A stretch of 39,777 bases of DNA from positions 1,600 to 41,376 of IMG/VR virus record IMGVR_UViG_3300000234_000010, one strand, 5' to 3'. Positions 317 through 26,850 of this stretch are shown here, piece by piece. A program made the translations under genes and the position numbers. The DNA comes from a virus. A model generated the notes under the pieces. That model was not told the DNA's origin. It saw nothing but the letters and a program-made list of their open reading frames with translations, and searched no databases. The number at the start of each line of letters is the position of its first letter. Within the stretch, counting starts at the first letter, position 1.

Positions 317-1558
317 ATGGCTACTCAAATTTATGGTAATGGTACTACCACCGCGTCAGCGGGTCAGAATACTATTGTACACTACTACGACCGAGCTGGT
401 ATTAAAGCAGCTAACGCAGTAAACGTATATCAACAATTTGCTTCTCGTAAGGAAATGCCTACTAACATGGGTAAGACTTTCAAGATTAGTAAATTCCTCC
501 ACATGTATGACCGTAAGCAGTTTGACACCAATGGTGATATTACTGCTGACTTCGCTAAATATGGTTACATGACTGCTCGTACTCTTGCTAACGTGAACGC
601 TACTATTTTAGCTGCTGCGTTAGGTGAAGGTGCTGGTGCTGTTAACCAGCGCAGTATTGAAAAGATTACTGTAGAAGGTTCATTTGCTCGCTATGGTGAG
701 ATGATTGAATATTCTGATGAAGTTGATCTTTTCTCAGAAGATATGATTCAGACTCGTTATCGTATGGAACTTGGCGAAAATGCTAACCGTATTAATGAAG
801 ATTTGATTCAGCGTGATATGTTGGCAACTGGTACTGTAGTGAATGCTGGTGCTGCTACTTCTGTAGCTACCATTGGTACTGGCTCGCTTGCTAACGGCTC
901 TACTGACTCTGTTAACGTAGCTAACTATGATCTGATGCGTCGTGCAGTTGCTAAGCTTGTACGTAACCGTGCTAAGCGTAACACCACAGTTGTAACTGGT
1001 TCAACTAAGATTGATACTAAGCCAATTCCACGTGCGTTCTACGCAATTATTCCTGCGCAGGTTAAGTTCGATCTTGAGAACCAAACTCGTGGTAATACCT
1101 ACGAGCGTGAATTTGCTTATGTGCCTGTACAGAAGTATGCGGATGCAAGTAACTTAGCAGAAGGTGAAGTTGGCGCTATGTATGAAGTACGCTTCATTGA
1201 AGCAGAAAGTGCGCTAGTACAACGTGGTGCTGGTGCAGCAATTCCTGCATCATATGTAGGTACACTAGCGTATACTGTCTTTGCAACTGATGCTGATGCA
1301 ATTGCTGTACGTGGTGTTGGTGCGGTAGCTGGTTCATATTTCGATGTGTTCCCAATCCTGTTCCCAACTCAAGACGCATTCGCAACTGTTGGCTTAAAGG
1401 GTAACAACAAGATTGTGTTTAACTCTAAATCTCCTGCAGATGTAGATCTGACCAATCCATACGGAACTAAGGGATTTTTCAGCTACAATTTTTGGTACGC
1501 GTCCTTGCTACTGTCTGAGGAAACACTGCTCAGAGTGAACGTAGCAGCTTCTCAATAA
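317..1558 (+). CDS. Major capsid protein, N4-gp56 family
   Basis: A 413-residue protein that should form the icosahedral shell. The stretch FYAIIPAQVKFDLE followed by FAYVPVQKYAD and GEVGAMYEVRFIE (about residues 240-300) matches the pattern of N4-gp56-type capsid proteins: an 'AIIP/H..v..DL' strand, then 'GE.G...gvRF.E'. The length is normal for that family. The start is an ATG preceded by an AGGAG-type site (TTAGGAGATAAAAA). The base composition is visibly richer in GC and in frequently used codons than the neighbouring genes, as expected for the most abundant virion protein. It follows the scaffold-like gene by 17 nt and is followed by two hairpins, the second a clear terminator, so it probably ends a high-level late transcript. 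Confidence 0.85.
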   Translation: MATQIYGNGTTTASAGQNTIVHYYDRAGIKAANAVNVYQQFASRKEMPTNMGKTFKISKFLHMYDRKQFDTNGDITADFAKYGYMTARTLANVNATILAAALGEGAGAVNQRSIEKITVEGSFARYGEMIEYSDEVDLFSEDMIQTRYRMELGENANRINEDLIQRDMLATGTVVNAGAATSVATIGTGSLANGSTDSVNVANYDLMRRAVAKLVRNRAKRNTTVVTGSTKIDTKPIPRAFYAIIPAQVKFDLENQTRGNTYEREFAYVPVQKYADASNLAEGEVGAMYEVRFIEAESALVQRGAGAAIPASYVGTLAYTVFATDADAIAVRGVGAVAGSYFDVFPILFPTQDAFATVGLKGNNKIVFNSKSPADVDLTNPYGTKGFFSYNFWYASLLLSEETLLRVNVAASQ

Positions 1559-2723: not shown

Positions 2724-2725
2724 CC

Positions 2726-2754
2726 TTTACACACAAACCATTATTGTGTATAAT
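2726..2754 (+). promoter_or_regulatory. Near-consensus sigma70 promoter upstream of the 2808 gene
   Basis: TTTACA (2726-2731), a 17-nt spacer and a perfect TATAAT (2749-2754) lie 54 nt before the next ATG. It begins 3 nt after the endonuclease stop codon and would restart transcription into the connector and tail genes. Confidence 0.75.
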
Positions 2755-2807
2755 ACAGACTGAACTTAAACAATTTTTAACTAAATAACCAATAGGATTT
2801 AGACAAC

Positions 2808-3293: not shown

Positions 3294-3294
3294 T

Positions 3295-9771: not shown

Positions 9772-10236
9772 ATGAGTTACGGTGATGATGATGGACTTTT
9801 AGATGTCAATAGCTTAATTAGATCAAAAAAAGGCGGTGCAGGACTAGGAAATTTCTTTGCCAATAGCGGACAAACTACAGGCAAACTAGCAGACATAGCT
9901 GCCGATGACGCAAACGTATTTGGCGGTAACTCAAGTGATTATTTAAGTGCTATGAGGCTAAGTGGGACAAAACCTACAGAAATGTCAGGGTTAGATAAAC
10001 TATTCGGTACTGATAACGGTAGAGCTATGGTGAATGCTGGATTAGGAGTTGGTCAATTAGGTCTGGGGTTAGCTAGTTACCTAAGTAATGCTAAGATGCT
10101 AAAGAAGCAAGGCGCATTGATGGATCAGCAATTAGCTAATAATACTAAAGAAATGGCTAGACGAGATGGCGCATTAAGTGCGTTTGACAAAGGCGTGAAT
10201 GACTACAGAAATAACAATGGTGCTGTAGTAGCATAA
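9772..10236 (+). CDS. Small internal virion-like protein
   Basis: A 154-residue protein with a Gly/Asp-rich, probably flexible N-terminus (about 1-75), then a short Gly/Ala/Leu-rich amphipathic segment (AMVNAGLGVGQLGLGLASYL, about 85-105), then a helical basic tail. A glycine-zipper-like helix followed by a helical tail is reminiscent of T7 gp14-type internal proteins, but I find no diagnostic motif. A 37-nt AT-rich gap separates it from the preceding gene; the ribosome binding site is weak (AGAGAA). It lies between the tail gene and the long coiled-coil gene. Confidence 0.55.
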   Translation: MSYGDDDGLLDVNSLIRSKKGGAGLGNFFANSGQTTGKLADIAADDANVFGGNSSDYLSAMRLSGTKPTEMSGLDKLFGTDNGRAMVNAGLGVGQLGLGLASYLSNAKMLKKQGALMDQQLANNTKEMARRDGALSAFDKGVNDYRNNNGAVVA

Positions 10237-10253
10237 CTAATAAGGTAGCGCAA

Positions 10254-12059
10254 ATGGCAGGTTCAAGATTAGATTTTAGTACTGGTGCGATAATTAATCC
10301 ATTCTCACAAACGCAGAGTGCGTTGGAGAGTATTAGTAATACTATTGGTAGTATATCAAAGCAATATTTAGATAAGCAGCAACACGAAGAGCGTATGGCT
10401 GAAAGTAAAGCTGCACGAGAAGAATCTAATAATAGATTTGCTCAAGAGATGGCTGCGAATAGAGACAAGTTTGAGTATAGTAAAAGTCAAGATGCTATTG
10501 CCGCTGGCAGACAAAAAGTATTAGATGATAGAGCTAACACGGCACGAGACGCATTAAGCGAAATTGGTACTCGGATGACTGAAGCAGCGGCTAAAGCTAC
10601 AATAGCTGCTGTACCAGAAAAAGCTAAAGAAGTAGCTGACATTCATAGTGGTATACTAAGAGATACGTTTGCTACCAAGCAAAAATTGTATGAGGATGGT
10701 GGGGATAAAGCTAATGCAGCTCGTATGCGAGATACCCTAAAGGCATTTGATACATTAGGGTTAGAGAAGCAACAAGAAACTAATTTAGCCAACAATCCAA
10801 CTGAGTTGGTTAATAGTTTAGCTAAAAGCTCAATTGATAGTGATAAATTGAAAGGGGAGCTATACCAATATTTAATTAGTAAAGGTGCTAAAGGTTCTGA
10901 TGCAATAGAAGCTATTAATTTATATGATCGTGCTTCAGGCGCAGTAACTCCTGAAGAAAGAATTGCTATTAGAAAAAATGAATTAGATACGAGTAAAGCA
11001 CTTCGAGAAGCTGGTATTGCATTAGGTGATATAGGACCTCAAAGATATGGTACTAGTAATCAAAAAAACGCTGGTAGTGGCGGAGTTGTAGAAAATTTGC
11101 ACTCTGGATGGACTGGAACTAATAGCGGTGATAAAGCGTTATATAATGATACTATGGAAAAAGTTAGACTCGATAACCCAAACGCAACACCGGAACAGAT
11201 TAAAGGAGCTGTCGATAGAGCTGTGCAGGCTAATTCGAGGCAGTATGGTGAAGGAGATTGGCGAATAACCGCTAGCCCTGAAAATTTGTTAGCAAGCAGT
11301 CAGCAGTACATAGTTACTGGTACTAGCAACAATGGATTAGCCCCAGAACAAAAAGAAAGACAAAAAAGAGCTGAGGAATTAATTGAGCAGTCAGTAAAAG
11401 GACTACGCGCTAGTACTGTAGGATTGACTAAAGATCAAAAAGCTGAAGTTGAAAAAGGGTTACTAGTTGAAAAATTATTAGAGCAATTTCCGTCAGGAAT
11501 AGATGTATTAAACGCTGATCTAAAAAGCAATACAGAATTACCTGCTATGATTAAAGAAGAAGAAGAAGAAAAAAATCAAAGCAAAGGAGATATAAACACT
11601 GTTACTGGTAGTAATTTAGTAAAAAAATTTATAGAAACTGATAAAGTACAGCCTGAACAAGTTAAAGCGTATACTGATGAGCTTATAAAAAAAGGAGCTG
11701 ATCCAAAAGTGGCAGCAGCCACAGCAGAAAACGCAATAAAAAATAATAATGTAAATTCTTTACTAGCACTAAATCCGGAGTATAAAAATACTAGTTGGTT
11801 AGATAGGTTAATCATGAAATCTAACATGGAGTCTAAGAGGGCTGAAACTTTAGTACAAGCTCGTAATAATGGTGCTGATAATGAAGTAGCGTGGGAATTA
11901 GCAGTTAAAGACCCTGCAGTAATAACTTTGACTAATAAACTAAACAAAGCTAAAGAGATGGCAGATGAAGCAAATTTCGTGAGAAGTTTACAAAACATGC
12001 CCTCTGATGTTACTAGAGAATTATTACTTGGAAGATCAAATACGGAAAATAAGAAATGA
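10254..12059 (+). CDS. Internal virion protein, helical and coiled-coil rich
   Basis: A 601-residue, strongly helical protein with high Lys/Glu/Ala/Asn content and no recognised enzymatic motif. Residues about 35-150 are a long charged coiled coil (EERMAESKAAREESNNRF and following). Residues about 415-530 hold another helical region with an EEEEEK stretch. It overlaps the transglycosylase gene by 4 nt (ATGA), so the pair is probably made together; in T7- and N4-like phages large helical internal proteins accompany a peptidoglycan-cutting enzyme in the ejected complex. The ATG follows AATAAGGTAGCGCAA (AAGG site). Confidence 0.6.
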   Translation: MAGSRLDFSTGAIINPFSQTQSALESISNTIGSISKQYLDKQQHEERMAESKAAREESNNRFAQEMAANRDKFEYSKSQDAIAAGRQKVLDDRANTARDALSEIGTRMTEAAAKATIAAVPEKAKEVADIHSGILRDTFATKQKLYEDGGDKANAARMRDTLKAFDTLGLEKQQETNLANNPTELVNSLAKSSIDSDKLKGELYQYLISKGAKGSDAIEAINLYDRASGAVTPEERIAIRKNELDTSKALREAGIALGDIGPQRYGTSNQKNAGSGGVVENLHSGWTGTNSGDKALYNDTMEKVRLDNPNATPEQIKGAVDRAVQANSRQYGEGDWRITASPENLLASSQQYIVTGTSNNGLAPEQKERQKRAEELIEQSVKGLRASTVGLTKDQKAEVEKGLLVEKLLEQFPSGIDVLNADLKSNTELPAMIKEEEEEKNQSKGDINTVTGSNLVKKFIETDKVQPEQVKAYTDELIKKGADPKVAAATAENAIKNNNVNSLLALNPEYKNTSWLDRLIMKSNMESKRAETLVQARNNGADNEVAWELAVKDPAVITLTNKLNKAKEMADEANFVRSLQNMPSDVTRELLLGRSNTENKK

Positions 12060-12961
12060 CAGGTTATAATGCACAGCATGAAGGTAGCGTAAGGAATTAT
12101 GCTAATTTGCTTGGGATAAGTCCGGCATTAGCATTGAATGTTATGCGGATGGAAAGTAGAGGCGATGCTACTGCTCAACCAATAGGAAAAAATGGCAAAC
12201 CATTATCCAGTGCTCATGGATTGTTTCAGATGCTTGACCCAACTTGGAAAGAGCAAGGTGGTACTGCAGCTAATAGAAATGACCCAGAGACTCAAGCAAG
12301 GCTAGGTGTGCAATACCTAACTAAGAGTAGAGACTACCTGAAGAAGAACTTAGGTAGAGATGTACAAGACTATGAAGTGTACATGGGGCATCTGTTAGGA
12401 CCTCATGGAGCTAAGACGTTACTAAGTGCTGACCCGAATGGTAAATTATCGGATACGGTTAGTAAGTTCAGTAAAAATCCGAATGCGGTGATATTAAATA
12501 ACGGCATGAATGCTGATATGACTAATGCCCAAGCTGCCCAGTTTTGGAGTCAGCGGTATGATAAAGTGGCAGGTGGTCGTCCGGCTAGAATACCCGAAAC
12601 TACTGCATTAGCTCCAAAACCAATACCACAAACTCCGGTAGTACAGCCTACACCACAAGCTCAAGCAGTGCCACAGAATGTGATTGAGGTTGCTCAAGCT
12701 AGTGCTGCTCCAGTATTGCCAAGTAGTAATGGGTTGGCTGCTTCATTAGTTAATGAAAGACAATCGATAGTAGATAAAAAAGCACTGCAAGATGCGTATC
12801 TGAGTGGTAAAGAAGCTGCTGAAGAAAAAGTACAGGATACTAGCCCGATTAATATGGATGGGTTAGCTAAGTCACTAAGTTACATGAAAGATTATAGTGA
12901 GTATGCTACTCCAACTAATATTGGTAAGGCTAAAGGCAATAGTCGATTAAAATTTAACTAG
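12056..12961 (+). CDS. Virion lytic transglycosylase (SLT domain)
   Basis: A 301-residue enzyme that should cleave the glycan strand of peptidoglycan, letting the ejection apparatus pass the cell wall. Residues about 10-130 form a goose-type/SLT lysozyme fold: LNVMRMESRGDATAQ contains the catalytic glutamate (E in MESRGD), and SSAHGLFQMLDPTW is the conserved 'GLfQ' segment. A tyrosine-containing helix VQDYEVYMGHLLGPHG follows. The remaining 130 residues are a Pro/Gln/Ala-rich linker and a helical tail, probably for anchoring in the virion. There is no signal peptide, fitting a particle-borne enzyme rather than a lysis endolysin. The start overlaps the coiled-coil gene by 4 nt. Confidence 0.85.
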   Translation: MTGYNAQHEGSVRNYANLLGISPALALNVMRMESRGDATAQPIGKNGKPLSSAHGLFQMLDPTWKEQGGTAANRNDPETQARLGVQYLTKSRDYLKKNLGRDVQDYEVYMGHLLGPHGAKTLLSADPNGKLSDTVSKFSKNPNAVILNNGMNADMTNAQAAQFWSQRYDKVAGGRPARIPETTALAPKPIPQTPVVQPTPQAQAVPQNVIEVAQASAAPVLPSSNGLAASLVNERQSIVDKKALQDAYLSGKEAAEEKVQDTSPINMDGLAKSLSYMKDYSEYATPTNIGKAKGNSRLKFN

Positions 12962-13079: not shown

Positions 13080-16000
13080 ATGGCATTAGAATACGCAACA
13101 GCAGCAGAAGTATTTACCAGTTCTGGGCAAGCATCAATAGCAGAAGAAAAACATAAGCTATTAGAAGCAAACAAAGCTGAGAAAGAAAGTAGAATTGGTA
13201 GTAGAAATGTTAAGAATGGAGCTAATCTCGATGATTCAGTAACTGTGCTGGAAGACGGTACGGTTGAATCGAATAAAAATAAGATGTGGAATAAAATGTC
13301 AAGCGCTGAATATCAGTCAACGTTTGGTGTTGGTGTGCGTGATTATCATTTGATACCTGATGAGAAAGGTGGGTTGAAGTATGCCAATAGTGGTGAACAC
13401 TATGATGGTAAAACTGAATATGCTTATATGGGCTATGGTAAAGAAAGTCCAGACGTATTCAAGTTTGGTATCGCTAGAGGTGATAAGCCGGTAGAAGCTA
13501 GATATGATCCGGCTAGGGGTGGATGGGCTAGTGGACCAGAAGGAATAGATAATACTAATATGCAAGGGTTCTTGTTACCTGCGCAAGTAGCAATAACATT
13601 GGAAGCATTAGGTCATGGTAGACAAGAAGCGTTAGATAATAGAGCAGCTAAATCTGGAGACCCTACTGGTAAAAGTAGATTTGGTAGTGGTTACACAGAA
13701 TACTACAATAAGGATAGCGGGTTTTTTGGTGACAGTAGAGATGATGCACAAGTTGATCAAAATGCGATTGCTGCTACGCTGAAAGGATATATTGCACAAG
13801 CCCAAGAAATTAATCCGAGAATGGGTATCGTAGATAAGCAAGCTTACTATGATAAGCTGCAAGAAATACAAAAAGCAAAAGAAGCTCAGAATATGGGCTT
13901 GGTTGATAGAGTAGCTAATACGGCTAAAGGATTTGCTAAAGGGGTAGTACAGAACTTAGTAGTTGATACTGCAGATATGGCAGGAGAGATTCTCGATAGA
14001 ACTACTGACGGAGCTGTTGGTTGGGACTTGGGAGATCGTCAGAAAAAGTCTCGTGATGTAAGTAATTGGTTGGGTTATAACGAAAAAGTAGCTGAACAAG
14101 CTATGGAGATAGTGCATAAAGAAGTAGGTAGTGCTTTTGATGCAGCGTTCGATGATAAGAAAGATGTTGATTGGGCTGGCGTTAGAAAAGGCTTAAAGGC
14201 AGCATTTACGAGTCCGGAAAGCATTGCTGAATCGTTAGGTTATGTGGCTTCTATGCTGGTAGGATTTGGCAAGACTGCCGCATCAAAAGCTGCGGGCATG
14301 GCTATGGCTGCTGATAAGTTAACAGAAGCAGCTACGGTAGCTAATGCAGCAGGTAAGGCGGAAGAAGTAGCTAAGATTAGTGGGGACTTGGCTAAGGTTA
14401 CACAGCAGCAAAAAATATTTACTAAACAGGCTAACATTGGTACTGCGATTGGGGTGGTTGGTGTAACTAACATATCAGCAGGTGAGGTGAATGACCAGAT
14501 AGATGAATATAAGAAAAATAATAATGGTGAATCTCCGGCTACTGGTGAGATATTATTTAGGATGATGCCGATTGCTGTAGCTAGCTCATACTTGGATAGA
14601 ATGGCATTAGATGCAACATTATCAGGTGGTAAGCAAGCTATTAAGGCAGTGACAGAAGGGCTGCCAGTCGGTGATAAGAAAATGCTTTTGGCAAAAGGTA
14701 TTATGGGTGCTGCTTCATTAGCTAAGGCTGGTAGTATTGAGGCTGGTCAAGAATATGTGCAGACAATGGCAGAGATATTCAACGAACAGTATGATACTGC
14801 TAAATGGGGTACTAATATTGGTAACATAGTTACTAATAGGGATAACATCGTAGAATCATTGACAGGTGCTACAATGGGCTTTGCAATGGGTACTCAGTTG
14901 AGAGGGGCAGCGATGGTAGCTCATAATGCTGGTCCAGTGCTGGGTGCTGTTGGGAGTGGTTTAGGTGCAATGACAGACGCTATCGGCGATGCTATGCCTG
15001 TTTCAAATGAGGTAAGAGACGCAGTAGCGAGTGAAGCAGAAACAGAGAAGGTAGCTGAAGCTAGCAGTATTAAGGATAGTACATTAGTTACTGCATATAA
15101 TAGGTTTAGGGGTAGCGTCGATTCACAGATTGTGGCAATGAAAATAGCACATGCTGGCTTAGATCCTAGCAAGGCAACTGCAGAGGATATTGCAGGTATT
15201 CGTAATGATCCTCAACACGCTGAACATGTATCGACAGGGATCATTAATTCACTGCTACAAAGAGAAGGTAGATCCGATAATCCAGATATGGGAGTAACTA
15301 ATCTGTTGAAGGGTATGGAGGCTAGTGGTGATACTAAAACTGCTGCTGCGCTGAGAGATGGTATATCCAAGTTACGTGGGTTGAGTATCGAAGAAACCAA
15401 AAAAATATATGGTAGTGATAGGGATTTCTTAGACTTGATGTACAGTATGGGTAGTAATAACCAGACACTATCAGATGATGATATTAGTGGTATGGTTGCT
15501 AATGCTAAACAGGTTTACGGGGATACAATTACCGAAGAGAAAGTAAAAGAATTACTTGAAGCCAGTAAGGTCGAGAACATAATTTATGATCGTCTTGGGT
15601 ATACAGGTAAGTCTCAAGGGGAAGTTGGTCAGGACGTTATTGGTGGTAAGAGTTCAAAGTATAAAGGATTCCAAATACACTATAGAGAAGCTGTCACTGC
15701 TAGGGCATTAGGCGATACTAAAGCTGCTGAAAAAGCTACTACCGCACTACAAAATTTAATTAATAATCAAAATAATAAATATACAGCAATAAATACTCAA
15801 GTTGAGAAGTTGACTGAGAAATTTAATAATGAGGTAAATGCACTAATACCCGGCTTGACGCAAAAAGCTATAAATAATGGTAGTACATTAAGTGTTCAAG
15901 ATGCAGAAGCAGAAGCTCGCACAATTGTAGCTGGAAGGGGGGCTTGGGATAATACAGCTACCACTAAAGTAGCGTACCCCGGAGATCCAAAACATAGCTT

Positions 16001-19000
16001 TGCTATTAAGCATAGTGATATTGCTACTGGAAATGTGTTTGGCGTTAATGGCTTCCTCAAAACTGTGCTAAAAGAAGCAACAATAGGTAAGGAGTTATTA
16101 GAAGCGTATGCCACAGGGATTACTGCTGCCGATATGAGCAGTACTAGCGAGACAGTTAATCCAACTACAGTTAATCCAACTACAGTTAATCCAACTACAG
16201 TTAATCCAACTACAGTGGTAGAACCAGTAGCTCAAGAATATGATACTGAAGAAGAGCAAGAACAGAATGTATATCAGCAAGAGCTGGATGAAACTGGTTT
16301 TGATGAAGATACTCGTTTTGGTATGACTGATGAAGAATTGGCAAGCCTTGCAGGACAGGATAGGGGTGGTAGTACTGATTCTGATGAAGAAGCTTCTGCT
16401 ATTAATACAGCTATTGCAGATAGGAATAAAAAGTTTACAGAAAATCGTAATATAATCAAGCAAATGCAAAAAGATCATAGAGAGCTTGAGAAGAACTATA
16501 GAGGAGTAGTGACTGACGTTATAGCTTCTACGGGAGAGAGAGGAGCTACGTCATCTGATAAATTATTAGAACTGCTTACAGTTAAGATTAGTAAGTTTGT
16601 AGATGTGGTGCGAACAGAGCAGGCAAGTAATAAAGATAAATTACCAGGAGTAGAAAAGCTACTGAAGACTGCAGTAGCACTCAAAGGCACAACTACAGAA
16701 TCAATTGATGATTTTAACGATGCTCTTGCTGGTATTAAGGTTATAGGTGAAAAAGTTGAAGCACATAAGGTATTTGCTGATAAAATAGCGAGTATTAGGG
16801 AGGGCTATACTACGCTACTTAATGCAGAGTTAGCTAGAACTACAGGACAAAAAAACATTGAAAAAGATTATGAAGAACTAACTAAAAAAATACTATTAGG
16901 TAACAGTAGAATTGAGTATTATCTTTACGGAGAGGGTTCGGCAGATATAACTGGGGTGTTTAAGTTTAATCCTACTCCTTTGAACATAATTGATTATACG
17001 AAGGTAAAATTGACTGATAATGAAAGCAAAATAATTAATGAAACTGTTGATGCTTTGCATAGGATAAAGGGTTGGGCTAATGATAAAGCTAGTACTAATA
17101 TCTCTGATGAACGAGCACGCCATAATAATCCAGCATTAAATTTCTTGGGTAGTAATATGTCAGAAAATGTGGCTGTGGCGTTACGTACTGCCGTGGATAG
17201 TTACATATCTAATAATTATACGGAACTGACTACTGCCCCAGAAGATAATAATGAATTATTTACTATGGCTGGTGCTCAGTCAATGTCACATATGTCATCA
17301 AAAGTAATTGATCTATTTGCTAAGGGTGGTAAACAAGCTTCTATAGTAGCTCATGATATTGGAAAAGAGGTTATGCAGTTGCTGGGTATCACGGCACAAA
17401 AAAATAGTTCGACAATACAGGAAAATGCGTTGAGTACCTCATTCGGGTTACTGGGAGTAGCCTTGATGTCAGAGTTAGGTTACATAAAGAGCTTGAAAAC
17501 GGAAAAAGGTGCTACAGGTATATATAGGATAGCCCCTGATGGGCTAGAGGTCGGCAAGTTTAATACGGTTAAAAATGGAGTATTTATTAGAGATGATTTT
17601 GGTTTAGCTGAGTTAGGTGCTATTAGAGAAAATATTAAAACTATGAGTGCTTTAAGTCCAGAAGGTGAAAGTAATGCAATGCCATCTTTTGAACCTATTG
17701 AAGACAAGAGGATAAAGATACGCAGAGAAGACTTTATGGATGTGCCAGAGAGTCACCAAAAAGCTGTGAAGAAGTTAAATAATGTAGGATTTAATTTACA
17801 TCAAGGCGGTATGGAAATGCTGGCTAGGGTTTATGGAGATAATTGGTATGAGAATAAGGCACTACAAAGTATAGTAGGAATGCCTGAAAAAGAAGATGCG
17901 GATGCAGACATATTCAAAAGTGCCACTAGAAGAGCGTCAGACGCTGGTAAAGAGCGTCAAGTACTGGATACGTTAAATGGTCTTAAGTTGCTACAAGAAG
18001 CTGCTACAGAGGCTAAGAAGCCGTTCTACTACGAGTGGTTTATTGGTAGGAATTTGCGACTCCATATTAAGAATACTATTGGTAATATGCAAGCTGATAG
18101 TAAGTTGGTTAGGTGGTTAGTACAGCCAGCAGATGGTTCTTGGAGTACTACAGTATCTAAGGTAGATGTAGATGGGTTTGAAGGCAAGGGTGGAAATAAA
18201 GCAATTGAGAATATGCTATTTGGTATAGTGCAAGCTTTGGATGGGATTAGCGAAATACCGAGTACTGAAAAAGATAAATATGAAGTAGTTATTGCAAAAG
18301 CTAAGGAATTGTTGCAGATACCAGTAGATGAACTAATTGTGATGGTTCAAGAGAGTAAGAAGCTTAAACATCCGGGACATGCTGCAGTAGCACTACATCA
18401 GATAAAGGCTTACCAAGAGGCTGTGGATACGTTTGAGGCATCAATTCCTAGAGAAGTTGATGGTAAAACTAATGGGTTTGCCCACAAGATATTGCAGTTC
18501 CCTATAATAAAGCTAGAAGAATTATTAGGGTTTCTACGAGCAGTAGGGATTATTACAAGTGAAGAAGAACTGAATGGTGTTCCTGTTGATAGTATTACTG
18601 ACGTAATTTCTGAAAATAAGTACGGAGACGTTTACCAAAAATTAGGGTTTAATTTTTATAACAAGTATGTAGCTACTTTAAAAAGTATAGACATGACACC
18701 CAAGGATATTAAAAATTTGGTTGGAGGAGCATTTGATTTTAGTGACCCATTAGCTTTAGAAACAAGTGTAAAAGGTGCATTGCGTCAGTTGCCAAAAGAG
18801 GCGGCTACTGAAGTTAACTATTCATCCAATATAGGAACAGCGGCATCGAAAAGAGGTTCGCAGTTTGCTGATATGCTAATGGATAAGATAGCAAGTGCTA
18901 ATGACGATGAACTATCGGATACGATGACCTCAATAATAAGATTAGCTGCAAAGTTAGTTCTAAAAGGTATGGGAAGTACAGAATTGGCTACTAAAACTAC

Positions 19001-20114
19001 AGCAACCCAAATAGGTAACATTCTTAATGAATTAGCTATCTCTATAAATAATGATAAATTAGTTTTAGTCCGTACCAGAAGTAACATAAGAAAGAACTTG
19101 AATGTGGCAGAAGCGAATGCTGATGTATATAAAGTTATTAAATACGTAGGTGATCAGCTAGTTGGAGATGCTTTGTTTAGTGCGTTAAATTCACAGTTTG
19201 GGGAATGGGAAGCTTTTAATAGTGCTATTAACTATGGGATGAACTGGGTATTTCATGTGTTTGTGGATGCGTATGATACAAGAGCTAAAGCATTAGGTAA
19301 TAACATAACTAAGGAACAGCACTACAAAATAATGGAAGATTTATCATTTCTGATACCTGCAGTAGCTACTGTTGATACGGATAATGAGTTTAATAGAGTA
19401 AGTTTACTGAAGTTAGGTATTGCACCTGAAAATACTGAAGATAAAAATGCTGTTAAACTGAAAAGAATTAAGAATACCGGGAATGATTATTTAAATTTTT
19501 TACGGGAAGATATACTTGTAGGTAAATGGAAAGAGCCTGCAGCATCTACGCTACCCATACTTACACATGGACTGGATGCGTCAAATATGGTACATGCTGT
19601 GAATAATGTTGACGAAGTAATAGTCCCTATACATGATGCTAAAGTATCTGGAGTTACTGATGATACTTCTAGTGCTGCTTTGAATAAGGCATTCTTTACA
19701 GATAATATGAAATACTCAATGGGTACTGAAGCCATAAATGTGATATTAAATACATATAAATATGTTACAACTGAGCTTGATGCAGTAACTAGGGAAAGAT
19801 TAATAAACAAAGATTTAAAAACACCGCTTGCTACTGCGAGTGTATATATTGGAGAACATATTAATGGTCTTGGTAATTACTTGAGTAAAATAACAGATAA
19901 TAGAGCTATCATTGCAGGAATGGATTTAAAAGTAGGCCAGTTTGTTGATAACTATGGTACAATGTACGAATATAAAGGAAGCAGTGCAGTGGAAGCTTAT
20001 ACTCAGGCTCAGTCCGATGCTATAAAAGCAGCAAGGGCAATACTTGGAGATAGTGATAAGTTGAGTGATGAGGAAATATTAGAGATGCTAAATAGTATAG
20101 TAGAGTGTAAATAA
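13080..20114 (+). CDS. Giant virion protein with single-subunit RNA polymerase domain (N4 vRNAP-like)
   Basis: A 2344-residue protein whose C-terminal third carries, in order, the motifs of T7/N4-type RNA polymerases. YYEWFIGRNLRLHI (about 1650) corresponds to the T/DxxGR element. EVDGKTNGFAHKILQ corresponds to motif A, with D1794 as metal-binding Asp. IIRLAAKLVLKGMGST corresponds to motif B (R1954, K1958). THGLDASNM (H2163) followed by PIHDAKVSG corresponds to motif C (D2186), compare T7 'FVHSQDGS ... IHDS'. N4 carries such an enzyme (about 3500 residues) in its capsid and injects it to transcribe early genes. The first about 200 residues form a separate domain of uncertain kind, residues about 280-720 are helical, and VNPTT repeats lie near 1025. 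Spacing A-B (160 residues) is longer than in T7. Odd point: the motif B tyrosine seems replaced by Met. It precedes two further giant genes with a 1-nt overlap (TAATG). Domain searches could still overturn this, but four ordered motifs make it likely. Confidence 0.75.
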   Translation: MALEYATAAEVFTSSGQASIAEEKHKLLEANKAEKESRIGSRNVKNGANLDDSVTVLEDGTVESNKNKMWNKMSSAEYQSTFGVGVRDYHLIPDEKGGLKYANSGEHYDGKTEYAYMGYGKESPDVFKFGIARGDKPVEARYDPARGGWASGPEGIDNTNMQGFLLPAQVAITLEALGHGRQEALDNRAAKSGDPTGKSRFGSGYTEYYNKDSGFFGDSRDDAQVDQNAIAATLKGYIAQAQEINPRMGIVDKQAYYDKLQEIQKAKEAQNMGLVDRVANTAKGFAKGVVQNLVVDTADMAGEILDRTTDGAVGWDLGDRQKKSRDVSNWLGYNEKVAEQAMEIVHKEVGSAFDAAFDDKKDVDWAGVRKGLKAAFTSPESIAESLGYVASMLVGFGKTAASKAAGMAMAADKLTEAATVANAAGKAEEVAKISGDLAKVTQQQKIFTKQANIGTAIGVVGVTNISAGEVNDQIDEYKKNNNGESPATGEILFRMMPIAVASSYLDRMALDATLSGGKQAIKAVTEGLPVGDKKMLLAKGIMGAASLAKAGSIEAGQEYVQTMAEIFNEQYDTAKWGTNIGNIVTNRDNIVESLTGATMGFAMGTQLRGAAMVAHNAGPVLGAVGSGLGAMTDAIGDAMPVSNEVRDAVASEAETEKVAEASSIKDSTLVTAYNRFRGSVDSQIVAMKIAHAGLDPSKATAEDIAGIRNDPQHAEHVSTGIINSLLQREGRSDNPDMGVTNLLKGMEASGDTKTAAALRDGISKLRGLSIEETKKIYGSDRDFLDLMYSMGSNNQTLSDDDISGMVANAKQVYGDTITEEKVKELLEASKVENIIYDRLGYTGKSQGEVGQDVIGGKSSKYKGFQIHYREAVTARALGDTKAAEKATTALQNLINNQNNKYTAINTQVEKLTEKFNNEVNALIPGLTQKAINNGSTLSVQDAEAEARTIVAGRGAWDNTATTKVAYPGDPKHSFAIKHSDIATGNVFGVNGFLKTVLKEATIGKELLEAYATGITAADMSSTSETVNPTTVNPTTVNPTTVNPTTVVEPVAQEYDTEEEQEQNVYQQELDETGFDEDTRFGMTDEELASLAGQDRGGSTDSDEEASAINTAIADRNKKFTENRNIIKQMQKDHRELEKNYRGVVTDVIASTGERGATSSDKLLELLTVKISKFVDVVRTEQASNKDKLPGVEKLLKTAVALKGTTTESIDDFNDALAGIKVIGEKVEAHKVFADKIASIREGYTTLLNAELARTTGQKNIEKDYEELTKKILLGNSRIEYYLYGEGSADITGVFKFNPTPLNIIDYTKVKLTDNESKIINETVDALHRIKGWANDKASTNISDERARHNNPALNFLGSNMSENVAVALRTAVDSYISNNYTELTTAPEDNNELFTMAGAQSMSHMSSKVIDLFAKGGKQASIVAHDIGKEVMQLLGITAQKNSSTIQENALSTSFGLLGVALMSELGYIKSLKTEKGATGIYRIAPDGLEVGKFNTVKNGVFIRDDFGLAELGAIRENIKTMSALSPEGESNAMPSFEPIEDKRIKIRREDFMDVPESHQKAVKKLNNVGFNLHQGGMEMLARVYGDNWYENKALQSIVGMPEKEDADADIFKSATRRASDAGKERQVLDTLNGLKLLQEAATEAKKPFYYEWFIGRNLRLHIKNTIGNMQADSKLVRWLVQPADGSWSTTVSKVDVDGFEGKGGNKAIENMLFGIVQALDGISEIPSTEKDKYEVVIAKAKELLQIPVDELIVMVQESKKLKHPGHAAVALHQIKAYQEAVDTFEASIPREVDGKTNGFAHKILQFPIIKLEELLGFLRAVGIITSEEELNGVPVDSITDVISENKYGDVYQKLGFNFYNKYVATLKSIDMTPKDIKNLVGGAFDFSDPLALETSVKGALRQLPKEAATEVNYSSNIGTAASKRGSQFADMLMDKIASANDDELSDTMTSIIRLAAKLVLKGMGSTELATKTTATQIGNILNELAISINNDKLVLVRTRSNIRKNLNVAEANADVYKVIKYVGDQLVGDALFSALNSQFGEWEAFNSAINYGMNWVFHVFVDAYDTRAKALGNNITKEQHYKIMEDLSFLIPAVATVDTDNEFNRVSLLKLGIAPENTEDKNAVKLKRIKNTGNDYLNFLREDILVGKWKEPAASTLPILTHGLDASNMVHAVNNVDEVIVPIHDAKVSGVTDDTSSAALNKAFFTDNMKYSMGTEAINVILNTYKYVTTELDAVTRERLINKDLKTPLATASVYIGEHINGLGNYLSKITDNRAIIAGMDLKVGQFVDNYGTMYEYKGSSAVEAYTQAQSDAIKAARAILGDSDKLSDEEILEMLNSIVECK
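16152..16216 (+). repeat. In-frame 15-bp tandem repeat (4.3 copies) coding VNPTT
   Basis: The unit ACAGTTAATCCAACT is repeated four times without a mismatch and starts a fifth time, at about residue 1025 of the giant polymerase protein. It encodes a Pro/Thr linker. Perfect copies suggest recent slippage expansion. The opposite-strand open frame over it is a shadow. Confidence 0.9.
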
Positions 20115-23026
20115 TGAATTGTAACGTTAATGGTGGTGACTATACCGAAAAAATTAAAGCAAAATTAGGCTTAAGTGATGCACAAATTCAAAAGCTGAAA
20201 GCAATTGCTGATAAATTAGGTGCTATTGTAAAAGCAACTAAAAGTGAGATTGTTAGTGGTAAAGTAGTTAGTACCAGTAGTACTTCTGAGAGCGTGCAAT
20301 CACCTACTGCAGTTGCAGAAGTAGTGGTTGGTTCAGGTAAGCCAAAGAAACACCCTTATGTCGCAATGATGTTAGATGCTATTAATAAACAACATAGCAT
20401 TACAATAAAAAAAGATATTGCAATGGCTGTTAAAATATTACAGAGTAAAGGTCATTCTGAGGTTGGTAGGGCTAATAAAAATGAAATAACGTTGCCTGAT
20501 TTTGAAGGGGTTATAGCCAATGAGGGGGCAATTCGTGCTGTTAGTAAAGTTACAGGTCAGACCAAAGAAGAAGTAGTGGCTTTGGCGAATGAGTATGCGG
20601 CTGATATGTTTATGGAACGAGCTAAACTGCATGAAAGTATTCACGTAGCTAGTGTGGGTTATATGGAGAAAAATCCAAATAGTCTGTACACTAAAAGAGT
20701 AGAAACTATTTATAGACGTGTGCTAGAGATTACGGCTAAGGACTCAAATCATCCACTTAATTTTATTCAGAATAAGTATTGGGCTACGAATGTAAAAGAG
20801 TTTTTGGCTGTATCATTGTCACATTCAGAAATGATTAAAGAACTAAATAAGATTACTATTGGTAATACGTCCATTTTCCATGTGCTAATTGACACAGTAA
20901 GAAAGATGTTAAAGATACCTAATAATAGTGCTACTGGAGTATTGATGGATAGTTTTTTACATATGAATGATAATAATGTTGGTGGTAGTGAAAAACCAGC
21001 AGCTGCTATAGCGCCCACTACTCCAGTAGATGCTGTAGAAGGTTCATATGTCATACCGGGTGTAGGTACAACTAATGCAGGGCAGACAAAAGCAGTAAAT
21101 GAGATTGCTAATTGGTTGAAAGAAAGAACACAAAAAAATGTGGGAAGTTATTTGCTTACTGGTAGTGGTGGTACAGGAAAAACTGCGGTAGTAAATGTAG
21201 TGTTGTCTAAGATGGGAATATCTCCGAAGGACGTGGTTTTTGTAGCACCTACTAATAGAGCTAAGACTGTACTAAATCAAGCTAATAGTAAAACTGCATA
21301 TAACAATTCTGAGTATGCTACAGTTGCGCAATTGCAGGGGCTGTTGCCAGATGTAATGACCGGAAAGTTTAATATTAGTGTAGGAAAAGAAGACTTACGA
21401 GACATGTACGGCAATAAACTATTAGTAATTGATGAAAGTTCTATGATTGGTACTGAGGCTTACAGTGCAATTATTGATCTTTATGGTGCTGAAAATATAT
21501 TGTTTATGGGGGATATTAAACAACTACCGCCTATTGAAAAAATTCGTAGGTTTATTGCAAATTTGTCGAAGGGTGGTTATATTGATGCCTTTGAGTCTCC
21601 TGTATTTACATATCATAAAGAAGAAGGCAAGAATGTTAGTACGCTAACCCAAATTCAACGTCAATCAAGTGATAATCCTATTAACAATATAACGTCATTT
21701 ATTGGTGACTTAGTTTTAGAAGTTATTGGCATGAGAGAAAATGATAAGTACGTTAGCGGGGGGAGTATTGGTACATGGATTCGTAAAGTTAAAGATGGTT
21801 TAGCGGATATTAGTAAAGAAAATAAAGATAGTAGACTCTCTTTTGTTAAAACTAAAGCAGAAGCAATAAAGCCATTGATTGAGGCGTTTAAAGAAGATAA
21901 ATTTAATACTGCATATATTCATTTTAATAATGCTGTACACGATAATACAATTGGTCCGAGTAATATTATTAGAAATAGCTTGTTCGGAGAAAAGGCAGCT
22001 AAAGATGAAAGGAACTATATTGAAGGGGATTTAATTGTATTTAAGAATGCAACAATATTGTATAAAAAAGATAACATAGATACTGCCGTATCAGTTAGTC
22101 ACTCGGCATTAGGGACTGAGGTTAATATAACAGCAGCAAATGTAATAGATGTAGATGATAAAACTGCTGTTGACGTTACTGCAAATAGTCGTGGTATTAT
22201 TAGGAAAATTATGCCTATTGAAGAGTATATAGAGACTAAAGGGCTTAATGCAAAAGATTTTGGTGTGTATGGTACAGAGCAAACGCCTAATGGAAAGGCA
22301 ACTACTTTGGTGATGGATGAGAGCGCTGTACCGGAAAATAAAAAGAAGTTCTTAGGTGCGTTGAGAAAGTCATTGGCTGTAATGGTAGTTGAGATTGATG
22401 ATGGGTTTAAGGAAGGTCAAGGTAACAGAGAAGTAATTATGGTAACTTCTCGAACACTGCCTAGAGGAGAAGTTATTGATTATGGTAAAAGGGTAGATAA
22501 TGCCTATGTACATAAGAATAGCCACTACGCAGGAACTTCGTTAGCATCTATAAGAAGAGAGCATATTGAAAACAGTAACTATGAGGCTTTTCAGCGCAGG
22601 AAACAGGTAACAGAAGCCTATAAGAGTACAGCGTTTATTACTGATATTAAGCACGGTTACGTTGTTAATTCGCACCAAGTACAAGGAAGCTCATATGGTA
22701 CTACGGTAGTTGATGTGAATAATATCATTGCTTCAGCAAAGTTTGGTCATTTTGAAACGATGTTAAAGGCTTTGTATGTAGCTGTATCCAGACCAAAAAG
22801 TAATCTGATACTGATTACAGATAGCGCTGTAACTAGTAGCAATTATGCAGATGAAAAAATTGCAATGGATGAAACTAGAAACACTATTGAAGAAAGTACT
22901 GTTGATGATGAAGAATTAGGTATACCAAATAAAGGCCCTAGCCAAGAGGGTTTAGATGGTTATTATTCACTTGTGGAAAGAAATCCAGATGTGTATAATC
23001 AAATTATAAATGATAATAATTGTTAA
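20114..23026 (+). CDS. Metallopeptidase-like and SF1 helicase fusion, probable injected polyvalent protein
   Basis: A 970-residue protein with two recognisable domains. Residues about 130-250 contain KLHESIHVASVG (H173ExxH177) and a downstream NVKEFLAVSLSH glutamate, the layout of a zincin-type peptidase. Residues about 330-910 form a superfamily 1B (RecD/Dda/Pif1-like) helicase: LLTGSGGTGKT (Walker A, 350-357), LLVIDESSMIG (D440, E441), LFMGDIKQLPPI (motif III), VNSHQVQGSSYGTT (about 854) and LYVAVSRPKSNLILIT (about 887). Combining such domains is characteristic of phage 'polyvalent' proteins that enter the host with the DNA. The gene lies between the virion polymerase and another metallopeptidase-like gene, far from the replication operon, so a packaged, injected helicase is more likely than a replication helicase. 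Its start overlaps the polymerase stop by 1 nt. Confidence 0.75.
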   Translation: MNCNVNGGDYTEKIKAKLGLSDAQIQKLKAIADKLGAIVKATKSEIVSGKVVSTSSTSESVQSPTAVAEVVVGSGKPKKHPYVAMMLDAINKQHSITIKKDIAMAVKILQSKGHSEVGRANKNEITLPDFEGVIANEGAIRAVSKVTGQTKEEVVALANEYAADMFMERAKLHESIHVASVGYMEKNPNSLYTKRVETIYRRVLEITAKDSNHPLNFIQNKYWATNVKEFLAVSLSHSEMIKELNKITIGNTSIFHVLIDTVRKMLKIPNNSATGVLMDSFLHMNDNNVGGSEKPAAAIAPTTPVDAVEGSYVIPGVGTTNAGQTKAVNEIANWLKERTQKNVGSYLLTGSGGTGKTAVVNVVLSKMGISPKDVVFVAPTNRAKTVLNQANSKTAYNNSEYATVAQLQGLLPDVMTGKFNISVGKEDLRDMYGNKLLVIDESSMIGTEAYSAIIDLYGAENILFMGDIKQLPPIEKIRRFIANLSKGGYIDAFESPVFTYHKEEGKNVSTLTQIQRQSSDNPINNITSFIGDLVLEVIGMRENDKYVSGGSIGTWIRKVKDGLADISKENKDSRLSFVKTKAEAIKPLIEAFKEDKFNTAYIHFNNAVHDNTIGPSNIIRNSLFGEKAAKDERNYIEGDLIVFKNATILYKKDNIDTAVSVSHSALGTEVNITAANVIDVDDKTAVDVTANSRGIIRKIMPIEEYIETKGLNAKDFGVYGTEQTPNGKATTLVMDESAVPENKKKFLGALRKSLAVMVVEIDDGFKEGQGNREVIMVTSRTLPRGEVIDYGKRVDNAYVHKNSHYAGTSLASIRREHIENSNYEAFQRRKQVTEAYKSTAFITDIKHGYVVNSHQVQGSSYGTTVVDVNNIIASAKFGHFETMLKALYVAVSRPKSNLILITDSAVTSSNYADEKIAMDETRNTIEESTVDDEELGIPNKGPSQEGLDGYYSLVERNPDVYNQIINDNNC

Positions 23027-23034
23027 GGTGAATA

Positions 23035-26000
23035 ATGAGCTGTACAGTTGATGTAAATGAATTAAAAAATATTGCTGAGGAAGGCGGAGTTAGTTTTGAG
23101 GAACTCAAAAAAGTAAAGGATTTTCATGATTCTTTAAGCCCTTATATGAAAGAGGAATTAGATATTACTCAAGGTAGAGTATCGGCTAAATGGGCTAATA
23201 GAGTTCCATTGAAGATTAATGATGAAATAGTTAAGTTAGTTAATGTTTCGGATGATAAGGTTTGGTATGTCGATAGCCAAAGTAAAGTACGTGAGGCTGA
23301 TATTGATGATGTACGAACTGCAGATGGGAGCTATGCAGGGCAGTTTGTTAAGGTACTGAAAGAAGCAGCAGATTTCTATATTGATGCTAAAACTGGGTTT
23401 GAGACTAGGGGTAAGGACTTACTGAATGACCCAGATAAGTTTAAAGAATTAGCTGTAGAAATTGATGAAGCAGATAGTAGAGATATTAGTCCAGAGCATA
23501 GAGCTAGACTAATGAATGTTGTCCATACTTTAACAGATGTATTTAAAGGTGCATTGCCGACTATTAGTGTACATATCAATAAAGCATATGATAAGACTGG
23601 TGGAGTAATTGAGATTAGTCCAGAAAGTAATACTGCTGATTTGTATGTAGGTATAGGGCCTAACAGCGGTAATAAGTCTGCACTAGAGACGTATGCTCAC
23701 GAATTAACGCATGGTGCGATAGACTTTATACTGAGTGCAAAAGATCATGCGATAACAACGCTCGTACATAGAATGACGAGGGTGTTGGAAGAGTTCGTTA
23801 GTACTACGTCTGCTGCTGACTTAGCTAAATTTATGCCTGATCAGAGCACTGCAGTACATGACGCAGAGCAATTACTGAAGTACATAACAGAACATGGGCT
23901 AAAAGAATTTATTCCACACGCACTGACTAATGAGTATGTGGTTGCTAGATTAGCTGAGATGTCCACTCCTAGGATTAAAGAAAATCCGAATAGTAAGGGG
24001 TATGCTTATCAAATTATTATGTTCATTCGTAAAGCATTTGGTATGATTATTGGTAGACTGCAAAGAGAGCCTGCAGGTAATGACCTAGTTAAAATGGGGT
24101 GGTTAATTGGGAGGCTGATTGCTGCAAATAACCGTCAGATGTACTTTAAGGAAAAAGGATTACTTGGAAGAGTAGATAGATATATAGATAGTGTTGATGC
24201 TAAGATTGGTGAGTTAGTTGAGAAGGGTAAAGAAAAAGTACTTGGTAATGGGTTTATAGTACCTAACCAGAGTGATAGTACACTAGTAAAGCTTGGTAAA
24301 TTAGGTAAGGTGGTAGCAGGTTCATTCTTTGATGATAGGTTGAAGATACAAGCAGAATTGCAAGCTACTGCATTGGGACAAAGCCCAGAAGGGATACTAC
24401 AGACATTGATTAGAAATTCTACTGCTCCTGATAAGTTTTTGAAGGATGTGGAAAGTAGTATATTGCAAGTTACTAATATTGATAGAAATAAGGCAGTAGC
24501 AAAAAATGAAGTTGTCAGCACGGTTATGGAAGCATTTGGTAGGAAGTTAACACGTAAGGACTTGGCTGGTTTAGATAAGATACTGAGAGCGGACTTGATT
24601 GTTTTGGAAGACTTGGAAACATTCATTGACCCGAATACTGGAGAATCTACTATACATAATGAAATAAATGCTATAGAAGCAGGTTTAGAGAGTGCGTTTG
24701 GGTTGGAAATAAAGAATTACTATAAGGGACAATCATTAGCATTGGCTAGGTATTTACTTACTAATAATGGTGGTATAGCGCTGTTAAAAAATGCAAGAAA
24801 TATTGCTATGAGGGTTAATGATGTCACTAAAGTTACTGTAGAGGACGAGAATGTTACCAGTACTATTGATAGATTAGTTAGTTTGTATGCTTTGCAGCAG
24901 ACTGATGCGTATTCAAAAGAAGCTATGTATAGTTTGTTTAGTAATGATAAAGAAGGTGTTGATGCTTTCAAAGTACAGATGCTTGCTATGAAAGAAGAAT
25001 CGAAGGAATTGTTTAGCACTGTAGGTGAGCAGTATTTTGAAGTAAAAGGATACCACAAGGATTTATATCCTAATAATATGGATATTAAAATTGGTGCTTT
25101 GAAAGATGAAGCAGAGTATAAGAAAATAGGGTATAAGTTGATTAGTGAATCCAATAATCATAGTTTACATAAAAGAAGTGAGCGGATGGGTTTGTATATA
25201 AATACTATGCCAACTAATCCTAGTTATCAGAAAACTGGTGTACGAATTACAGATAAGAAGCACAGAGGATTTACGATTACTGACTCGTATAATGTTGAAG
25301 TGGATAGTGATTATATCGAGAAGACTGTAGCGTATGAAGCAGCTAAAAGGGATATAGCTAGGTTACATACTAGGATGGTTACGGTTCTTGAAAAGCAAAA
25401 GAAAGGTGATTTCACGTTAGATAAGGAGGATGAAAATATTCATCCGATGATGGACACTAATGGAGAAATAACTAATTTTACTTATGAGATGAAGTGGCAG
25501 GATAAGTTAGATTTGCTGGGGTTGGATAGTCATCCAGTAGAGTCATTAGCGCATACAGTTGCATCAATTTACGATAGGGTAGCGACAGTAAAACATAACA
25601 TTAAAGTAATGGATAAGGTGTTAACAGATGCCAAGAGCCAGAATATCAATACGAATACAGAACGAAATTTAGGAGCTAATTTAAAGGAATATATTTTTAT
25701 TAGTCCTACTTCCGAAGATGCTAGTGCTAAAGAGTACTGGGCATTACTGCCTAGAGAATTGCGTAGTCATATTAATAAGCAGAATAGAAATACTCCATTT
25801 AGACCACGTAAAGTTAGGCATGGTGCAGAGCCAGCTCCAATAGGATTCTATATACGAAGAGATGCACTGCATTCTGTATTAGGTTATAGAGCGTTGTCCG
25901 TAGCTAAGAGTAATGCAATGAAAAATACAGCACCGGAAGTAAAACATGCACTTGCAGTAGCAGGAGCAATATGGACTGCAGTAGTACAATTAGCTAAAAG

Positions 26001-26850
26001 AAACATCGTAATAAAGATACCTACTGTGTTTGTTAATAATGTGCTAAGCAATACTATACTGTTGTCAGTAATGGGTAATAGTCCTTTATCAGTGATGAAG
26101 TATCAACTGGATGGTGTAAAAGAACTGCATTTGTACTTAGAGACTGCTAGAAAGATAGTTAGATTAGAAACTAAGCGCAGAGCTGGAGTGATTACAGCAC
26201 TGGAAGTTAAGCAGTTAGCTCTGTTCAAATCTAAACTAGAGCAGTCTAGTATTAAAGAAATGATTGACGCAGGTTTCTATACTAACATTGTTGAGGAGAT
26301 TGATACTACAAATCACGGTACGGGTAATATAGTTGAAGATTACTTAGATAGTAAGTTAAAGAAGTTACCTTTTATAGTACAGAATGGGTTAAGTTTTGTT
26401 ATGTTTGACAGAAAGTCAACATATTTTAAGGCGATGTCACAAGCTACGCAGTACTCAGACTTTGTTGGTAGATACACACTGTACAAGATTAATAGAAAGA
26501 AAGGATTGTCACATGAGAGTGCTATTGAAAGATCAAGAGATGCTTTTGTAAACTATGGCATACCTAATAGTAAGAAACTGGATTGGTTTGAAAGAATGGG
26601 AGCTGTACTATTTACAAAATACTTTGTTAATATTCAGAGATTTGTCACAGCATCATTTAAAGAATCTCCATTACGAGTTATTGGAGGTTTACTAGCTTTG
26701 AATTTTCTTTGGGCGGATGCTCCTAATCCGTGGGAGTCAACGCTATTGACAGATGGTCCTTTGGACAGACTAGGCAATCCGTTTGATATACTTGGCACTG
26801 CAAGTACTCCCGGATTGGTTAGCGTATATGATAGTATGTCACATTATTAA
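23035..26850 (+). CDS. Giant virion-associated protein with HExxH metallopeptidase motif
   Basis: A 1271-residue protein ending the virion block. Residues about 160-310 contain LETYAHELTHGAIDFIL (H222ExxH226) preceded by GGVIEISPESNTADLYVG. This resembles a zincin-type peptidase domain of phage polyvalent proteins; a downstream acidic third ligand is plausible (EYVVARLAEM) but not certain. The rest is mainly helical. Around residues 980-1010 the segment KRNIVIKIPTVFVNNVLSN resembles a recurrent 'large polyvalent protein' helical region. I recognise no polymerase or helicase motif in it. It is separated from the helicase fusion by 8 nt with an AAGGTG site, so the three giant genes look co-expressed. 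A role inside the newly infected cell, or in the ejection complex, is inferred. Confidence 0.6.
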   Translation: MSCTVDVNELKNIAEEGGVSFEELKKVKDFHDSLSPYMKEELDITQGRVSAKWANRVPLKINDEIVKLVNVSDDKVWYVDSQSKVREADIDDVRTADGSYAGQFVKVLKEAADFYIDAKTGFETRGKDLLNDPDKFKELAVEIDEADSRDISPEHRARLMNVVHTLTDVFKGALPTISVHINKAYDKTGGVIEISPESNTADLYVGIGPNSGNKSALETYAHELTHGAIDFILSAKDHAITTLVHRMTRVLEEFVSTTSAADLAKFMPDQSTAVHDAEQLLKYITEHGLKEFIPHALTNEYVVARLAEMSTPRIKENPNSKGYAYQIIMFIRKAFGMIIGRLQREPAGNDLVKMGWLIGRLIAANNRQMYFKEKGLLGRVDRYIDSVDAKIGELVEKGKEKVLGNGFIVPNQSDSTLVKLGKLGKVVAGSFFDDRLKIQAELQATALGQSPEGILQTLIRNSTAPDKFLKDVESSILQVTNIDRNKAVAKNEVVSTVMEAFGRKLTRKDLAGLDKILRADLIVLEDLETFIDPNTGESTIHNEINAIEAGLESAFGLEIKNYYKGQSLALARYLLTNNGGIALLKNARNIAMRVNDVTKVTVEDENVTSTIDRLVSLYALQQTDAYSKEAMYSLFSNDKEGVDAFKVQMLAMKEESKELFSTVGEQYFEVKGYHKDLYPNNMDIKIGALKDEAEYKKIGYKLISESNNHSLHKRSERMGLYINTMPTNPSYQKTGVRITDKKHRGFTITDSYNVEVDSDYIEKTVAYEAAKRDIARLHTRMVTVLEKQKKGDFTLDKEDENIHPMMDTNGEITNFTYEMKWQDKLDLLGLDSHPVESLAHTVASIYDRVATVKHNIKVMDKVLTDAKSQNINTNTERNLGANLKEYIFISPTSEDASAKEYWALLPRELRSHINKQNRNTPFRPRKVRHGAEPAPIGFYIRRDALHSVLGYRALSVAKSNAMKNTAPEVKHALAVAGAIWTAVVQLAKRNIVIKIPTVFVNNVLSNTILLSVMGNSPLSVMKYQLDGVKELHLYLETARKIVRLETKRRAGVITALEVKQLALFKSKLEQSSIKEMIDAGFYTNIVEEIDTTNHGTGNIVEDYLDSKLKKLPFIVQNGLSFVMFDRKSTYFKAMSQATQYSDFVGRYTLYKINRKKGLSHESAIERSRDAFVNYGIPNSKKLDWFERMGAVLFTKYFVNIQRFVTASFKESPLRVIGGLLALNFLWADAPNPWESTLLTDGPLDRLGNPFDILGTASTPGLVSVYDSMSHY

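Follow-up and report, generated by a model that had tools for sequence, protein, structure and literature searches.

A split N4-type virion RNA polymerase with cysteines at the facing ends of its pieces, and a possible disulfide-joined ejection string

The phage from which the window derives (the whole 39,777-nucleotide stretch of DNA analysed here) almost certainly carries a split variant of the N4-type virion RNA polymerase (vRNAP), spread over three ORFs of 2344, 970 and 1271 aa. Of particular note is the distribution of cysteine: the three pieces hold four cysteines in 4,585 residues, against about 57 predicted from the cysteine frequency of the window's minus-strand genes, and all four lie at ends that face a neighbouring piece. 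The ban on cysteine in vRNAPs was already known; the new part is the pair of downstream ORFs and the cysteine pattern. The terminal-cysteine rule is solid as a statement about sequence; the disulfides that it suggests are inferred.

Identity of the polymerase domain

The first ORF (vRNAP-N, 2344 aa; 13080..20114, + strand) comprises an N-terminal domain (NTD) and, at about residues 1237-2344, an N4-type RNA polymerase domain. A sequence-only reading of the window had proposed a T7/N4-type virion RNA polymerase here, and PHROG profile, PDB profile and predicted fold all agree on N4 vRNAP. The ORF matches phrog_2206 ('virion RNA polymerase') with E = 3.5e-66 over profile positions 1027-1888, a score well outside chance, and also matches profile positions 24-1021. 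The single protein returned no PDB match at E<10 by phmmer and a profile was needed to reach N4: with a 16-relative profile, the sole PDB match was N4 vRNAP (E = 8e-37). The AF2 model of residues 1237-2344 (pLDDT 73, pTM 0.75) has the N4 mini-vRNAP 3C3L as its top Foldseek match (E = 7e-23, TM 0.61), ahead of mitochondrial and T7 RNAPs. The reading had named a right-hand palm fold and an alignment to N4 vRNAP as its test; when the test was run, both were found.

Motif residues were placed in an alignment of vRNAP-N with ten unsplit vRNAPs, N4 gp50 among them. The catalytic aspartate of motif A is D1794 (in VDGKTNG, from residue 1793; 18459..18461, +), which aligns with N4 D1556 (mini-vRNAP D559), and motif C is H2185-D2186 (19632..19637, +), with D2186 aligned to N4 D1948 (D951); both aspartates are invariant in alignment A6. 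Motif B is R1902-x3-K1906-x7-Y1914 (18783..18821, +), aligned to N4 R1663/K1667/Y1675, with all three residues invariant in A6 and the diagnostic tyrosine eight residues past the lysine. The stretch GRNLRLH (residues 1656-1662; 18045..18065, +) holds the TxxGR-motif arginine, R1660 (18057-18059, +), which aligns with N4 R1421/R424; the glycine position of that motif is L1659. Order is kept throughout, and R1660, D1794, R1902/K1906/Y1914 and D2186 are invariant across 23 relatives.

The strings and residues on which the sequence-only reading was built (GRNLRLH at 1656-1662, D1794, R1954-x3-K1958, H2163, and PIHDAK at 2183 with D2186) are all where it placed them, and its motif A, motif C and GR stretch survive alignment. 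Its motif B does not: motifs A and C enclose just two RxxxK, and the one that aligns is R1902/K1906/Y1914, not R1954/K1958. GRNLRLH encloses the right arginine, which is not that of its own 'GR' (1656-1657).

The surroundings resemble those of the N4 gene, which likewise follows gp52/gp51-like ORFs and lies near the capsid gene. The N4-type capsid protein cited in the original reading is indeed encoded nearby (major head protein, 317..1558, +; phrog_1357, E = 1.1e-78), directly followed by a NUMOD3-repeat protein, probably a homing endonuclease (1623-2723, +). Two cysteine-free ORFs of 154 and 601 aa (9772..12059, +) occupy the positions of N4 gp52 and gp51, an assignment made by position and cysteine census; the 601-aa ORF matched no Pfam family. 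Just upstream of vRNAP-N lies a cysteine-free lytic transglycosylase (SLT) of 301 aa (12056..12961, +; PF01464, E = 1e-6), which is probably part of the ejection operon and may belong to the ejected set; the N4 paper notes that peptidoglycan hydrolysis must come from elsewhere. On the minus strand, a ribonucleotide reductase large subunit (28696-31383; Ribonuc_red_lgC, E = 5e-85) is interrupted by a LAGLIDADG-endonuclease intein (LAGLIDADG_3, E = 2e-15; Intein_splicing, E = 4e-8), and DNA polymerase A, assigned by eye, occupies at least three ORFs (35373-36272, 36903-37874 and 37837-38544, within 35373-38544). A gap of about 630 bases in the latter could reflect an intron or a split polymerase. 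The early region is mostly outside the record.

Division of the gene and its cargo

In N4, gp50 (Schitoviridae; PDB 2PO4, 3C3L, 9PNQ) is a single cysteine-free chain of 3500 aa: an NTD, the RNAP domain (1007-2101), a 22-residue linker (2102-2123) and a C-terminal domain (CTD, 2124-3500) with an HExxH C1 module (PMC12633501). The window shares its polymerase motifs and fold, its NTD-RNAP-CTD order and its HExxH C1, but distributes them over separate ORFs, with terminal cysteines and a helicase/zincin cargo. The split maps to N4 about 2136-2169, just beyond the flexible RNAP/CTD linker, with the end of vRNAP-N at about 2136. The polymerase had been described as lying near the C-terminus, unlike in N4; this is true of the ORF, but it appears so because the gene is divided at the linker, and the N4 CTD sits on a separate ORF 2.9 kb downstream. 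That ORF (vRNAP-C, 1271 aa; 23035..26850, +) carries the C1 zincin (HELTH, 222-226) and C2, and matches phrog_2206 over profile positions 2281-3385 with E = 1.9e-122. The polymerase domain thus belongs to the N4-type family, and is found outside the single NTD-RNAP-CTD chain of ∼3500 residues. To describe a shorter protein with a C-terminal polymerase was therefore incomplete: the two downstream ORFs and their cysteines had been overlooked.

Between the two halves is the cargo ORF (970 aa; 20114..23026, +), whose start codon overlaps the vRNAP-N stop codon by its last base. It joins a zincin-like HExxH module (HESIH, 173-177), a paralogue of the vRNAP C1 domain (hhalign probability 95%, E = 3.6e-8), to a Dda/RecD-like SF1 helicase at about 320-907 (phrog_325, E = 8e-42; AAA_30/AAA_19, E = 1e-15; UvrD_C_2, E = 2.6e-5) in which Walker A (GSGGTGKT), Walker B (DES) and the UvrD_C_2 end are present. 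Its AF2 model (mean pLDDT 43.7) was too poor for a fold search and was set aside.

Direct IMG/VR protein searches with the second or third ORF alone returned no close relatives; alignments were needed, and 28 split N4-type systems were gathered from IMG/VR and GTDB contigs. A described phage also shows the split. Alteromonas phage vB_AmaP_AD45-P1 (NC_021532) has its vRNAP divided at the same linker into pieces of 2495 and 1409 aa, with cysteines at both facing ends (positions 2493 and 4), and an adjoining ClpP-RNR-DNA polymerase block as in the window; unlike the window it has two pieces and no cargo, and its record describes neither the split nor the cysteines. GenBank marks the region (90623-102305) as a 'potential frameshift'; we read it as a genuine two-gene split vRNAP, which has no protein entries and is consequently absent from protein databases.

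That annotation is the one point in favour of regarding the split as a frameshift or sequencing error in an ordinary single-chain gene. The window, where an entire 970-aa ORF intervenes, speaks against such an error, as do the 28 loci, which are broken at a common point, have start codons and short gaps or overlaps where the pieces meet, and carry terminal cysteines. Independent loci thus already refute an artefact, to which we give practically no credence.

In a tree of CTDs a single branch sets the split systems apart; its support is 41, which leaves the exact border of the clade uncertain. The presence of cargo requires five changes. Zincin plus helicase is found in the window and in four other loci (L016, L017, L019 and L030); elsewhere the cargo is a zincin alone (L026), a 776-aa protein with a zincin and other modules (L168, 7283-9613), or a 2112-aa protein that combines a DprA-like domain with a helicase and a zincin (L031, 3230-9562). 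The DprA-like domain of the last (phrog_768, E = 2.5e-48) is accompanied by a weak NADAR match, and the L168 cargo has a 2H-phosphoesterase-like HLTV...HISL pattern recognised by eye; both are possible counter-defence or repair enzymes.

Could the middle helicase be an ordinary replication gene that happens to sit in the operon and is never packaged? Dda-like helicases are common in phage replication, and those of phrog_325 share the helicase core of the cargo ORF. The cargo differs from them in its added zincin module, paralogous to vRNAP C1 and placed at the N-terminus, in its cysteine-capped ends and in its interior: the cargo helicases (816-1010 aa) have no internal cysteine, whereas three ordinary Dda-like helicases (408-485 aa) have 6-10. 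A helicase that accompanies the chain on ejection would be expected to have such a cysteine-free interior. Given also that five relatives have it between the halves of a virion protein, an unpackaged helicase is very improbable. From homology and cysteine depletion we infer that all three proteins are packaged and injected.

Cysteines at the junction-facing ends

Each of the four cysteines in the window faces a junction. The only cysteine of vRNAP-N is its penultimate residue, Cys2343 (20106..20108, +); the cargo has Cys3 (20120..20122, +; invariant in alignment A8) and its final residue, Cys970 (23021..23023, +); and the only cysteine of vRNAP-C is Cys3 (23041..23043, +), an invariant column in 19 C-parts. 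The C-terminal cysteine of N-parts is likewise an invariant column in alignments A5 and A6.

The rule holds across the 28 split systems, where every readable junction-facing end (69/69) has a cysteine within 10 residues: 25/25 C-termini of N-parts, 28/28 N-termini of C-parts, and 8/8 of each end of the cargo, all eight middle pieces being capped at both ends. These systems form one clade in the tree and the counts are therefore not independent; the log10 P of -144 under uniform placement ignores relatedness and is not to be taken as a probability. In total, 73 cysteines occur in 100,954 residues and just four lie away from junction ends; three of these are N-terminal, in proteins whose start codon is uncertain, and are thus possible start-codon errors. 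The last piece never has a cysteine at its C-terminus, and the first has one at its N-terminus only in cases of a doubtful start codon. The baseline comes from the remaining ORFs of these loci: a cysteine in the first 10 residues of 8/143 and the last 10 of 29/143, with an overall rate of 1.2%. Of the complete unsplit vRNAP relatives, 47/55 are cysteine-free.

Several observations stand beside these counts. Two unsplit vRNAP-like proteins of 4038 aa (L128, 1745-13861) and at least 4367 aa (L127) contain 20-25 cysteines and break the ban; L128 adjoins the split clade in the tree and has a NADAR-like domain. In L091 the polymerase ORF has an in-frame TGA (1105-1107) where relatives have a sense codon, and the frame runs on to a cysteine-bearing end, NEANCKK; recoding and error are both possible. 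In the structural region of the window, one ORF (3295-4422, +) has cysteines at positions 4 and 165 and another (4415-5977, +) has one only at position 6.

The terminal cysteines are, we are confident, functionally significant. Retention merely by descent is unlikely: at an identity of about 20-40% the cysteine columns never vary, in tails that are otherwise neither conserved nor alignable; moreover, each cargo insertion, on several branches, brings two cysteines, and crassviruses show the rule with no detectable homology. Joining by native ligation or an intein-type reaction was also considered and looks unlikely, the cysteines lying at positions 3-6 rather than position 2 and no intein domain having been detected in these ORFs.

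Crassviruses also make giant co-packaged proteins from two or three ORFs, with cysteines mainly or only at the junction-facing ends. Mass spectrometry found gp47, gp49 and gp50 in the crAss001 virion, and the tail of this phage has inter-chain disulfides (PMC10172136). In our census, gp47 has its sole cysteine at 2339 of 2341, gp49 its sole one at 5 of 1349, and gp50 has them at 5, 1334 and 2404 of 2412. The polymerase of these phages, described in the literature as of the two-barrel, cellular-like type, is in the middle piece. The exact pattern is seen in Cellulophaga phage phi14:2 (a cysteine only as the final residue of g067, only at 3 and -2 in g066, which is the RNAP, and only at 3 in g065) and in Cellulophaga phage phi17:2 (Lightbulbvirus), whose three virion structural ORFs gp039, gp038 and gp036 have cysteines only at -1, at 4 and -2, and at 3, respectively; gp036 is distantly related to crAss gp49. 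Terminal cysteines are kept in cr111_1, DAC15, cr55_1, cr118_1 and cr50_1, with 0-4 further internal cysteines per piece; the pieces of cr4_1, with recoded stops, are only partly readable. In crAss002 (MN917146) the annotated start of gp33, a large protein with several internal cysteines, precedes an MSC start, likely the true one, by 32 residues.

Between crAss gp49 and gp47 and the N4-type pieces hhalign gave probabilities of 0.1-0.3%, on which homology was rejected. With the rule present on both sides of this divide, it seems either to have had two or more origins or to predate by far anything that the sequences show. We found no description of terminal cysteines in vRNAPs or crassvirus polymerases in the literature searched, a search whose scope did not extend to Drobysheva et al. 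2021 or the AD45 paper.

A proposed ejection string

The virion holds about four copies of an N4-type vRNAP, which passes through a ∼35 Å channel like beads on a string and has an autoinhibitory CTD (PMC12633501). Our preferred reading, which we regard as probable, is that disulfides join the three chains end to end, that they are injected as a single string and that they come apart in the cytoplasm. Each facing pair of cysteines would form a disulfide inside the virion, giving about 4,600 residues in one linear chain (vRNAP-N-S-S-helicase-S-S-vRNAP-C) to be threaded through the tail. Such a chain would fix the order of the pieces and a 1:1:1 ratio, as does the single chain of N4. The reducing cytoplasm of the host would then break the bonds, freeing the polymerase from its CTD and releasing the helicase, which would have come in with the polymerase and could open the DNA as it enters. 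The cysteine-capped ends would serve as a connector by which different phages add different cargo modules (helicase, zincin, DprA-like).

Three considerations weigh against a disulfide string. Bond formation would need to take place in a reducing cytoplasm or after departure from it, and the host of crAss001 is an anaerobe, which we count against disulfide formation. The arrangement of cysteines may also permit mis-pairing, for example of N-part directly to C-part. Finally, some crassvirus RNAP pieces hold 1-4 internal cysteines.

The cysteines might instead do some other job at the ends of the pieces (binding a metal or the portal, making a thiol contact with a protein of the host or tail, or carrying an acyl group), with the pieces associating non-covalently. 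An exposed thiol on a terminal tail could bind anything, and the N4 RNAP-CTD interface is large but weak (PMC12633501). Yet the cysteines occur only at partner-facing ends, an inserted cargo has one per end, and a lone cysteine is a poor metal site; anchoring, moreover, predicts neither the pairing rule nor its recurrence in crassviruses. We consider a separate end function unlikely, if still credible. A cysteine-mediated bridge of another kind, through a shared metal ion or a different covalent thiol linkage, would have the same geometry and fit the rule equally, and sequence cannot tell it from a disulfide. Each junction, however, offers two cysteines, with no third or fourth ligand conserved in the tails, and the simplest chemistry between thiols that face each other is a disulfide; a bridge of this other kind seems distinctly improbable.

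Taken beyond the window, stapling by disulfides would describe a general phage device, evolved at least twice, in which giant tail-threaded proteins are made in pieces and rejoined through unique terminal cysteines. On balance we lean towards such a device, in N4-like phages and crassviruses alike, with ejection as one string, disassembly in the cytoplasm and a modular enzyme cargo that perhaps includes counter-defence functions.

Earlier work explained the absence of cysteine from vRNAPs as a means of avoiding disulfides that would block ejection through tail and periplasm (PMC3715699, PMC2784036, PMC3915230); chains that are cut regain cysteine exactly where they are cut. Linkage of the ends, if real, would account for the ordered, equal-number delivery of multi-chain polymerases, and would supply an assembly principle for gp47, gp50 and gp49 of crassviruses. 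Crassviruses are among the most abundant viruses of the human gut. Linkage also predicts three exact disulfide peptides per virion, searchable in existing mass-spectrometry data. The signature itself, a cysteine-free body with cysteine-capped ends, offers a way to find injected phage proteins in unannotated genomes, and suggests a natural design for the delivery of cargo through phage tails.
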